Shown piece after piece: positions 20,007-22,700 of a stretch of DNA of 55,261 nucleotides. The position numbers and the translations under genes are program-made. Positions within the stretch are counted from its first letter, which is position 1; every line of letters starts with the position of its first letter. The notes under the pieces were generated by a model. It had not been told where the DNA came from. It did no database searches and saw only the letters and a list, made by a program, of their open reading frames with translations. Source of the DNA: Candidatus Methylomirabilota bacterium (GTDB lineage Bacteria; Methylomirabilota; Methylomirabilia; Rokubacteriales; CSP1-6); NCBI GenBank assembly GCA_036002485.1, contig DASYTI010000106.1:1-55261 (forward strand). Reading direction: 5' to 3'.

Positions 20007-20618
20007 ATGGCGCAGCTGAGAATTCCCCTGGACGAGAAGCGCTTCAACACGGGCCTGAGCTGGAAGGACTACCTGGCCCAGATGGGCGACACCAAGCCCC
20101 GCACGGAAGAGAACTACTCCAAGGCCGGCCTCACCGATGACGAGCGCAAGTTCTTTTCCGGCATTGGCCAGGTCAAGTACGTGCTCATGATGGCCGAGAA
20201 CTGGTGCGGCGACGTCCATCGCAACTCCCCGATGATCGCGCGCATCGTCGAGGCCATGCCGGGGGCCGAGATGCGCGTGCTCCTGCGCGACCAGCACCCC
20301 GACCTGACCGAGTGCTTCCTGAACAACGGCTACCGCTCCATTCCCATCGTGGTCTTCTTCGACAAGGACTGGAACGAGGTCGGACGATGGATCGAGCGGG
20401 CCGGCGCCGCCACTCAGCGCTCGTTCGCCATCCGCGCCGCTACGCTTGATGCCGCGCCGGCCGACAACAAGGAGAAGCAGGACGCGGCCATGGCGGAATT
20501 CCGCAAGCAGGTCCAGGGCACGTATGACACGGCCCCCGACAAGAGCTTGTGGCGGGAGACGGCCAAGGAAGTCCGGCAAGTGCTGGAGCAGCGCCTGGGG
20601 CTCGCCGCCAAGAAGTAA
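20007..20618 (+). CDS. Thioredoxin-family protein with WCGD motif
   Basis: 203 residues, with AGGAGGAG upstream of ATG 20007. The thioredoxin-like core lies at about residues 45-140: VKYVLMMAENWCGDVHRNSPMIARIVEAM, then EMRVLLRDQHPDLTECFLNNGYRSIPIVVFFD, with the cis-Pro region SIPIV. The redox motif is W-C-G-D, with a single cysteine, so classic disulfide exchange is unlikely. This matches the group of thioredoxin-like proteins (PF14595 type) usually of unknown function. It is the last gene of the Lin0512-VOC run and is followed by two stem-loops. Confidence 0.88.
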   Translation: MAQLRIPLDEKRFNTGLSWKDYLAQMGDTKPRTEENYSKAGLTDDERKFFSGIGQVKYVLMMAENWCGDVHRNSPMIARIVEAMPGAEMRVLLRDQHPDLTECFLNNGYRSIPIVVFFDKDWNEVGRWIERAGAATQRSFAIRAATLDAAPADNKEKQDAAMAEFRKQVQGTYDTAPDKSLWRETAKEVRQVLEQRLGLAAKK

Positions 20619-20619
20619 A

Positions 20620-20635
20620 GGAGGCGCTCGCCTCC
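20620..20635. terminator. Stem-loop after the thioredoxin-family gene
   Basis: GGAGGC, loop GCTC, GCCTCC begins two bases after the stop codon. There is no T-run. It is probably an mRNA 3'-end structure together with the longer hairpin that follows. Confidence 0.4.
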
Positions 20636-20657
20636 GCTGATCGAGTGTCACGCCCCC

Positions 20658-20698
20658 GTCCCGCCCGGGGGAGCGCTCACGCGCTTTCCGGGCGGGAC
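20658..20698. terminator. Long GC-rich stem-loop
   Basis: GTCCCGCCCGG (20658-20668) pairs perfectly with CCGGGCGGGAC (20688-20698). Inside, AGCGC and GCGCT form a second stem around TCAC. It is a strong two-part hairpin without a T-tract, 40 bases after the thioredoxin-family gene, and is likely a terminator or RNA-stability element. Confidence 0.5.
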
Positions 20699-20836
20699 GA
20701 GTCCGCGCTCCGAAGAACCCTCGCCCGAGCTGGTCGCACGCGGTGAGTCGAAAGCAGTGTGTGGTATCCTACCCCCGTCGGGATTTGGGTCGTATCACAG
20801 ACGTAACTTGCCGGAACTACGTGACGAGTATGGGTC

Positions 20837-20889
20837 GAGGGCTGAGTTGATCTTCGAGCCGAGACGGTGCCGACGAGCCGAGGGCTGAG
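20837..20889 (+). repeat. Dispersed repeat copy B with a partial unit beside it
   Basis: The full unit spans 20853-20889, starts TTCGAGCCGAGACGG and ends GAGCCGAGGGCTGAG. Its first 28 bases are identical, on the opposite strand, to 21562-21589 in copy C. Directly before it, 20837-20852 repeats the terminal part (GAGGGCTGAGTTGATC), so a second, incomplete unit abuts it. Copy B ends 14 bases before the ATG of the small membrane protein gene and comes close to its Shine-Dalgarno site. Confidence 0.8.
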
Positions 20890-20903
20890 AAGATGAGGGG
20901 AGC

Positions 20904-21122
20904 ATGAAGAGCTTCGCGTCGCGCTACATCGCACTGCTTTGGCTCCTCGCGGTGCTCAGTCTCGTGGGTTGGTTCATCTGGAACTCCGACCTGGCCGGCT
21001 GGATCCTCGTTGTGTTGGTCGTGGGGCTCATGGTCTGGCAGCTCACGAGCCGCGAGCGCAGCGGGCGGGGCGGAGGAGCGAGGTCCAAGAGCCAGCGCCT
21101 GCCCGACGAGCCCACTCCATGA
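20904..21122 (+). CDS. Small two-helix membrane protein, function unknown
   Basis: 72 residues. Two hydrophobic segments are evident: IALLWLLAVLSLVGWFIW at about 9-26 and GWILVVLVVGLMVWQLT at about 32-48. A charged, disordered tail rich in Arg, Gly and Ser follows. AGGGGAG stands right before ATG 20904. The stop overlaps the ATG of the next gene (ATGA), so the two are co-translated. No family is recognised. The tail composition suggests a cytoplasmic or periplasmic tether. Repeat copy B sits immediately upstream. Confidence 0.65.
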   Translation: MKSFASRYIALLWLLAVLSLVGWFIWNSDLAGWILVVLVVGLMVWQLTSRERSGRGGGARSKSQRLPDEPTP

Positions 21123-21481
21123 GAGGGGTCCGCGTCCCCGCGCTCGCGCTCTCGATGGCCCTGCTCCTCGGCTCCGTCGCGGCCTGGGCGCAGCCCGAGA
21201 GAGCCAGCGAGCCGTCGACCCGCTGCTCGAGCTATGCGGTCGGCACCAACACGCAGACCGAATGTCAGCGCGCGGCGGGTCCCGCCACCTCACCGGCCAT
21301 CCACTGCACCAGCTCGAAGACGGGCACCGACACGCATGTCGAGTGCGCGCCCGTCGCCGCTCCCATCGTCATGGGAACGAGGCGCCCCGAGGCCTCACGG
21401 GCGCTTCCCGCCATGCCCGCCCCGCCCATGCGCTGCTCCAGCTACGCGATCGGCTCCTCCGTCTACACCGACTGCCGCTAG
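21119..21481 (+). CDS. Secreted protein with three C-x12-C repeats, function unknown
   Basis: 120 residues from ATG 21119. The signal peptide VPALALSMALLLGSVAAWAQ is probably cut after Ala24. The mature part has six cysteines in three pairs at 36/49, 63/76 and 106/119, each exactly C-x12-C. The units read CSSYAVGTNTQTEC, CTSSKTGTDTHVEC and CSSYAIGSSVYTDC, so the consensus is C-(S/T)-S-x-x-x-G-(T/S)-x-x-x-(T/V)-(E/D)-C. Linkers are Pro/Ala-rich. Each unit is probably a small disulfide-closed hairpin (inference). I do not recognise the family. ATGA overlap ties its translation to the membrane protein upstream. Confidence 0.7.
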   Translation: MRGVRVPALALSMALLLGSVAAWAQPERASEPSTRCSSYAVGTNTQTECQRAAGPATSPAIHCTSSKTGTDTHVECAPVAAPIVMGTRRPEASRALPAMPAPPMRCSSYAIGSSVYTDCR

Positions 21482-21486
21482 CGCGC

Positions 21487-22161
21487 ATGCCCCGCCGGTG
21501 CCATTGGGCCCGCGGCGAGCCCGACACCACTCAGCCCTCGCCTCGCCGGTCTCCTCGCCTGCGGCTCGTCGGCACCGTCTCGGCTCGAACGACCACTGCG
21601 TATCACGACCTCGAATGGGGCGTCCCGGTGCGTGACGACCGCCGGCTCTTCGAGCTCCTCGTCCTCGAGGGCGCCCAGGCCGGACTCAGCTGGTCGACCA
21701 TCCTGGCCAGACGCGCGGGGTACCGGCACGCCTTCGCGCGCTTCGATGTCGCGCGGGTGGCCCGCTTCAGGCCGGCCGTGATCGGCCGCCTGCTGCGTGA
21801 CCCCGGCATCATCCGGCACCGTGGCAAGATCGAGAGCGCGATCGGCAACGCGCGGGCCGTTCTTGCCGTCCAGCGCGAGCACGGCAGCTTCGCCGCGTAT
21901 CTCTGGGATTTCGTCGGCGGCCGGCCGCTCGACAACCGCCGGCGCTCACCCGGCCAGGTGCCGGCCCAGACGCCGCTCTCCCAGGCGCTGTCGCGCGATC
22001 TCAAGCGGCGCGGCTTCACCTTCGTCGGCCCCACGACCTGCTATGCCTTCATGCAGGCGGTCGGGCTCGTCAACGATCACCTCACCTCATGCTTCCGCTA
22101 CGCGCCCGTCCGCCGTCTCGCGGCGAGGCGAGGCGGAGCACGGCACCGAAAGCATGCTTGA
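21487..22161 (+). CDS. tag: DNA-3-methyladenine glycosylase I with an in-frame repeat-encoded insertion
   Basis: 224 residues from ATG 21487. From residue 39 on, the protein follows Tag closely: YHDLEWGVPVRDDRRLFELL, LEGAQAGLSWSTILARRAGYR with the catalytic-pocket residues, DPGIIRHRGKIESAIGNARA, and KRRGFTFVGPTTCYAFMQA with VNDHLTSC at the end. The zinc ligands would be Cys5, His40, and the His and Cys of NDHLTSC. In E. coli Tag the first two are 13 residues apart; here 35, because 22 extra residues (about 16-37) interrupt an otherwise colinear N-terminus. The extra DNA is repeat copy C. Tag excises 3-methyladenine from alkylated DNA. Whether the enlarged loop is tolerated is not known. Confidence 0.9.
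   Translation: MPRRCHWARGEPDTTQPSPRRSPRLRLVGTVSARTTTAYHDLEWGVPVRDDRRLFELLVLEGAQAGLSWSTILARRAGYRHAFARFDVARVARFRPAVIGRLLRDPGIIRHRGKIESAIGNARAVLAVQREHGSFAAYLWDFVGGRPLDNRRRSPGQVPAQTPLSQALSRDLKRRGFTFVGPTTCYAFMQAVGLVNDHLTSCFRYAPVRRLAARRGGARHRKHA
21529..21589 (-). repeat. Dispersed repeat copy C, inside the tag coding sequence
   Basis: On the minus strand this 61-base unit starts TTCGAGCCGAGACGG, shares 28 identical bases with copy B, and ends GAGGCGAGGGCTGAGT as copies A and D do. ACCACT occurs at 21526-21531 and again at 21592-21597, exactly 66 bases apart, and may be a target duplication, though ACT is also part of the repeat's usual end. The unit lies within codons 15-35 of tag and adds no stop in the tag frame. 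Confidence 0.82.
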
Positions 22162-22211
22162 GATCGCGGTGCGGGCCGTCTAGACTGACCGTGTGCTGAC
22201 CACGATGTCGC

Positions 22212-22700
22212 ATGGCGAGTGACCGCGGGCCGATGGGCGGCATCCTCCGCTTTCTCGGATTGAGTGGCGCCCCGGAGGACTCGGCGCCGCGCGCGGTCAT
22301 CTCGGCGGGCCTGAGCGATCCCTCCGATCCCGGGCGCGCGGTCCTGGGCAGCGGCCTCTCCCTTCGCGGCGAGATCACGGGGGAAGGTGACTTCCACGTT
22401 TACGGACGCTTCGAGGGCGAGATCGACGTCTCCGGACGCGTGGTGGTGGCCGAGAGCTCCGAGGTGGACGCCAATGTCAACGCCGCCTCCATCGTCATCG
22501 CGGGCAAGGTTCGCGGCAATCTCTCGGCCACCACGCGCCTCGACATCCTTCCCACCGGCGTGCTGACGGGCACCCTCAAGGCGGGCAGCTTCTCGGCGGC
22601 CGAGGGCGCCTCCGTCAAGGGCGAGATCTGGCTCGAGCGTGCGCAGCACAGCCGCCCGAGCGATGGACGAGGCCTCGGCTCCCCGGAGGAGCCAAGGTGA
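22212..22700 (+). CDS. Bactofilin family polymer-forming protein
   Basis: 162 residues. The central right-handed beta-helix of bactofilins is evident at about 45-145: GSGLSLRGEITGEGDFHVYGRFEGEIDVSG is followed by ESSEVDANVNAASIVIAGKVRGNL and LPTGVLTGTLKAGSFSAAEGASVKGEI. The repeated (V/L)xGxxxGx pattern marks the coils. Bactofilins polymerise without nucleotide at the inner membrane and organise cell-wall or stalk functions. The flanking N- and C-termini are disordered, as usual. The stop overlaps the GTG of the next gene (GTGA), coupling it to a membrane-anchored TPR protein. Confidence 0.92.
   Translation: MASDRGPMGGILRFLGLSGAPEDSAPRAVISAGLSDPSDPGRAVLGSGLSLRGEITGEGDFHVYGRFEGEIDVSGRVVVAESSEVDANVNAASIVIAGKVRGNLSATTRLDILPTGVLTGTLKAGSFSAAEGASVKGEIWLERAQHSRPSDGRGLGSPEEPR

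Follow-up and report, generated by a model that had tools for sequence, protein, structure and literature searches.

A three-unit, cysteine-paired gene coupled to a small membrane-protein gene in one genus of Methylomirabilota

Tachyplesin, protegrin and thanatin are antimicrobial peptides of animals, each a single, strongly cationic chain closed into a beta-hairpin by disulfides. Bacteria, for their part, have small exported proteins whose genes are coupled to those of small membrane proteins. Several small disulfide units in one secreted chain are reported for the SCREPs (secreted cysteine-rich repeat proteins, PMC6262176). The locus considered here lies in a window of 55,261 nucleotides (the whole stretch of DNA that was analysed, contig DASYTI010000106.1 of a Candidatus Methylomirabilota bacterium) and consists of a gene for a three-unit, cysteine-paired protein, P0001, whose start overlaps the end of a gene for a small membrane protein, P0002 (Table 1).

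Table 1. Coordinates of the gene pair and its parts within the window
Feature	Position	Strand	Basis
P0002, membrane partner, 72 aa, two hydrophobic helices with a short loop between, basic tail	20904..21122	+	translation; homologues
ATGA stop/start overlap of P0002 and P0001	21119..21122	+	ATGA or GTGA in 5/5 orthologous pairs
P0001 open reading frame, three-unit protein, 120 aa plus stop	21119..21481	+	translation; orthologues
Signal-peptide-like N-terminus of P0001, residues 1-25 (MRGVR, hydrophobic core, cleavage between AWA and Q)	21119..21193	+	cleavage site by eye
Unit 1, CSSYAVGTNTQTEC, residues 36-49	21224..21265	+	model strands 34-41, 44-50, low confidence
Unit 2, CTSSKTGTDTHVEC, residues 63-76	21305..21346	+	model strands 60-68, 71-79, low confidence
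Unit 3, CSSYAIGSSVYTDC, residues 106-119	21434..21475	+	model strands 106-111, 114-119, low confidence

The three-unit gene

Translation gives the P0001 reading frame just as an earlier note on this DNA had it, coordinates and stop included. All six cysteines fall, as that note had said, into three equally spaced pairs (residues 36/49, 63/76 and 106/119, each 13 apart), and the window copy has no cysteine outside the units. The units are 14 residues long, of the form C-x12-C, and are set on Pro/Ala-rich linkers; in all five orthologues (the window copy, G000, and those of four relatives, G001 to G004) the third unit is followed by an arginine and the stop codon, and by nothing else. Of 1,000,000 random placements of six cysteines in the 95-residue mature region, a fraction of 3.9e-5 had three consecutive pairs with a spacing of 13, and a fraction of 0.0012 had three pairs sharing any one spacing. 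Since this pattern was picked after the fact, its conservation in all four relatives is the stronger test.

The unit consensus proposed in the earlier note fits all three window units, but invariance across the 15 units of the five orthologues is limited to C1, G7 and C14. Residue 8 is S, T, N or P in every unit, position 11 is histidine in nine of the 15, and position 13 is D or E in 12. The frequencies at positions 11 and 13 would suit a periplasmic metal-binding protein, with the His, Asp, Glu and Cys of D-T-H-T-E-C motifs as ligands. Position 11 is, however, tyrosine in all five third units and glutamine in window unit 1, and the sole invariant residues have a hairpin-like spacing rather than that of a C-x-x-C site; we consider metal binding quite unlikely.

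P0001 is a real gene, and its third-position GC of 0.90 (0.86 to 0.91 in the four neighbours compared) is consistent with coding. By eye, the window copy begins with basic residues, continues with a hydrophobic core and offers a plausible small-x-small cleavage site, in keeping with the secreted-type protein of the earlier note, and the N-termini of the orthologues are likewise hydrophobic, with a cleavage site that is indistinct in G001. Inspection against the lipobox consensus found no lipobox in the orthologues: the G000 and G004 copies have no cysteine in their first 35 residues, while in G001 to G003 Cys17 is preceded by valine, which we take not to be a lipobox.

Distribution and selection

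In a whole-genome search, matches to P0001 at E 1.8e-12 or better were found in five of 60 genomes, namely its own and four of the same genus. A family search with the five-orthologue alignment (57 genomes, cut-off E 0.01) recovered all five genus genomes and none of the 52 others. Within a phylum set of 95 genomes, all of one class, a strict DNA pattern for the unit was found in four genomes, with five matches, every one in P0001 orthologues, and none for the reversed control; the pattern misses G001, whose units deviate from it. A search of the same set with a profile of the 14-residue unit, as the earlier note had recommended, returned the 15 units from which it was built at E 7.0e-4 or better and, as the next place, a partial match at E 0.265. 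As the profile was made from these same units, the finding is the gap beneath them, and no further credible unit was found in the 95 genomes.

Recognised families gave no credible relative of P0001, in line with the earlier note's failure to place it: the best match was EpCAM_N at E 0.14 in Pfam, E 0.17 in NCBIfam and E 0.63 in PHROGs, PADLOC gave no match, and neither the orthologue profile nor the unit profile matched a PDB sequence up to E 10. P0001 was unmatched in plasmids and phages up to E 10 (tblastn), and a search of viral contigs with the orthologue alignment found no relatives. Rfam had no matches on window positions 20500-22500, and a literature search found no paper on P0001.

Several candidates were considered and rejected. 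In 18 of the 60 genomes there were matches at E 0.006-0.1, where the regular expression C-[ST]-[ST]-x3-G...C found no in-frame unit; this expression also misses the units of G001 to G003 and is a weak filter, the profile and alignment searches being the better evidence. A locus in a Bacteriovoracaceae genome matched in its signal peptide only. Of four plasmid places at E 1-7 with the unit profile, three (H1, H2 and H4) lacked a unit pair on reading; the fourth, H3, falls inside a ParB-like gene. A scan of 84,980 species with exact 8-residue patterns from the window copy was insensitive, failing to return even the known genus relatives, and because it used exact short peptides it says little about distant relatives. 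For this reason we describe P0001, as judged by these searches, as confined to one genus of its phylum and not as found nowhere else, the search beyond the phylum being shallow.

All 15 C-x12-C units are intact in the window copy and the four relatives, and the frames are unbroken. The earlier note had named two observations that would count against it, an absence anywhere of homologues with conserved cysteine spacing and frame disruptions in close relatives; such homologues are present in all five genus genomes, and not one frame is broken in the four relatives. By the method of Nei and Gojobori, dN/dS for P0001 is 0.37 between G000 and G004 and 0.44, 0.36 and 0.29 for the three pairs among G001 to G003, rising to 0.63-0.86 in the six cross-clade pairs, for which dS is 0.80-1.00. 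At that divergence, constraint on the protein as a whole is modest, with the linkers free to diverge. The corresponding values are 0.12-0.39 for P0002 over the ten pairs and 0.12-0.25 for the nearby bactofilin, from which it appears that the constraint on P0001 is real but looser. In all ten pairs the units carry less non-synonymous change per site than the remainder of the mature region, the ratio of the two being 0.40-0.70, a value to be read with the uncertain linker alignment and the non-independence of the pairs in mind.

The genus restriction, the modest cross-clade constraint and the free linkers would all suit a gene that arose recently in this lineage, does little or nothing, and is translated by chance through its coupling to P0002. 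Against this reading stand the conserved units, the intact frames in five of five genomes, the retained overlap and the dN/dS of the closer pairs, which stays below 0.5; in G003, moreover, the pair is intact though most of the downstream methyladenine glycosylase gene (Tag) is gone. We regard a nearly functionless gene as improbable, if the least so of the alternatives considered here.

The membrane partner and its locus

The ATGA overlap with the gene of a two-helix membrane protein that the earlier note had reported is real, and the gene pair, whose conservation it had proposed to examine, is kept in all four genus relatives. The four-base overlap is ATGA in G000 and G002 and GTGA in G001, G003 and G004. 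Homologues of P0002 were found in the four relatives at E 1.6e-21 or better and in G006, a member of another genus, at E 1.3e-14; the remaining matches are at E 2.6e-4 or weaker, and several contain stops. The G006 homologue is on the bactofilin contig, and neither inspection of this locus nor the unit profile found a P0001-like gene or unit in G006, suggesting that P0002 has a life of its own. Also in G006, another small protein with hydrophobic stretches is encoded before bactofilin (loci L063 and L080).

Downstream of the pair are Tag (PF03352), bactofilin and a TPR protein. Wherever a contig covers the region, the pair is at this bactofilin-side locus; of the 57 family genomes, 37 have a bactofilin match at E 1e-12 or better. 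Most simply, the ancestor of the genus gained P0001 beside a membrane gene already present near bactofilin, or else P0001 was lost in other lineages. In G003 only a short Tag remnant follows the three-unit gene, with bactofilin at once after it and the pair intact. In several other genera (loci L083-L086), bactofilin is immediately preceded by a gene for a small protein that starts with a hydrophobic stretch and has two C-x-x-C pairs (for example YQRCPHCGALVRRVYRGWLRCHRCGRQYRRG); a cytochrome-c-like reading frame comes before that gene.

Small exported units of disulfide-hairpin type next to a coupled small membrane protein, in a narrow taxonomic range, might also be the precursor of a toxin or bacteriocin-like secreted peptide acting on other bacteria, P0002 then conferring immunity or serving in export. 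From residue 26 on, the five orthologues have charges of +2.1, +0.7, -1.2, +0.1 and -1.2 at pH 7, unlike the cationic hairpin peptides, and this near-neutrality weakens the antimicrobial option raised in the earlier note. PADLOC, Pfam and NCBIfam gave no toxin or immunity match, P0001 is both younger and less conserved than its partner, and the locus beside bactofilin is constant where the contig shows it. A toxin is, in our judgment, a poor candidate.

A thioredoxin-like gene lies upstream of the pair (20007-20618) and adjoins it in G004 too; on the stretches 5' of the pair in G003 and G002 it was not seen, other frames being listed there. This neighbour bears on the idea that P0001 is a redox-responsive or regulatory small protein whose disulfides report envelope oxidation and signal through P0002. 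All six cysteines are paired, the genome encodes a VKOR homologue over the Pfam cut-off, and a membrane partner is coupled, in keeping with such a role. The window P0002, however, is without cysteine, and the thioredoxin-like neighbour, though retained in G004, was not seen on the G003 and G002 stretches; we consider redox signalling quite unlikely.

A dispersed repeat occurs near the pair. When the genome was searched with an 81-base query (21525-21605), 63 matches were obtained up to E 1, of which 47 reach E 1.5e-14 or better. The repeat is about 61-66 bases long, several copies being tandem with a period of 64-67 bases, and it was found in all four genus relatives and in two of 21 other genomes searched. 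In the window, the repeat is read in frame within Tag as an insert of about 26 residues between the CHWARGEPD start and the YHD motif; the Tag proteins of G004, G001 and G002 lack this insert. The Tag of G004 has a longer C-terminus, its frame reading on beyond the point where Tag ends in the window, into sequence like that of the repeat (GAGCCGAG... stretches). The repeat is also present in inverted orientation upstream of the pair, at 20853-20885. At 14 other repeat loci inspected with their spanning frames, most copies look by eye to be intergenic or at gene ends, and as RNA the repeat folds no better than its shuffles (z 0.76).

Hairpin models, proposed role and comparison with known systems

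Single-sequence AlphaFold2 runs on full P0001 and on P0001 without the signal peptide both gave exactly three hairpins, those listed in Table 1, in line with the disulfide-hairpin option of the earlier note. With mean pLDDT of 55.2 and 56.8 and pTM of 0.32, these models are a hint only. The strand centres of the hairpins (42.5, 69.5 and 112.5) coincide with the midpoints between the two cysteines of each unit, which puts the turn at G7 and residue 8. When C-x12-C turns over two residues, its cysteines face each other at a non-hydrogen-bonded position, where a cross-strand disulfide can form, and glycine followed by S, T or N suits a type II' turn. The invariance of C1, G7 and C14 alone may thus be explained by a disulfide-suited pair and a turn that begins with glycine. 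VKOR-family enzymes drive disulfide formation outside the cytoplasm.

We propose that P0001 would be exported through a Sec-type signal peptide, and that outside the cytoplasm each C-x12-C unit would fold into a separate two-strand beta-hairpin, with G7 and residue 8 (S, T, N or P) forming the turn and C1 opposite C14, the two probably joined in a disulfide by the cell's oxidative folding enzymes. Strung along flexible Pro/Ala-rich linkers, these hairpins would resemble beads on a string, an arrangement suggesting that in the cell envelope P0001 probably serves as a small multivalent binder or structural component. Coupled translation probably sets the ratio of P0001 to P0002, and the partner may hold P0001 at the membrane. 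That the two proteins touch is a guess from the coupling of their genes, and the loop between the helices of P0002, at about six residues, is a small surface for such contact.

We put the probability at about one half that this is an orphan, genus-restricted pair in which an exported multivalent hairpin protein is made together with a small inner-membrane partner. The fuller proposal, that nothing in the protein folds except the 14-residue hairpins, each standing alone and closed by a disulfide, and that this architecture was born in this genus and is displayed in the envelope as a multivalent binder with a dedicated membrane partner, is more doubtful, and we offer it only tentatively. If the units do fold alone, they would be a natural minimal repeat scaffold of 14 residues, one disulfide and three invariant positions. 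The pair would also illustrate clearly how a new small exported gene can arise, translationally coupled, beside an older membrane gene, since G006 has the membrane gene without P0001. For now, P0001 takes its place among the many exported proteins confined to single lineages, as an orphan gene that is real but still modest.

Among known systems, the pair resembles the coupled bacterial small-protein pairs in its four-base overlap and small membrane partner, and differs in being unnamed as a family in Pfam, NCBIfam, PHROGs and PADLOC. With tachyplesin, protegrin and thanatin P0001 would share a short two-strand hairpin with cross-strand cysteine pairs; those are single cationic animal peptides, whereas P0001 is a near-neutral bacterial protein of 95 residues with three putative hairpins on linkers. 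The SCREPs are alike in carrying several small disulfide units per secreted chain, but they are reportedly animal venom proteins with larger, knotted domains (PMC6262176), a description that sets them apart from P0001.
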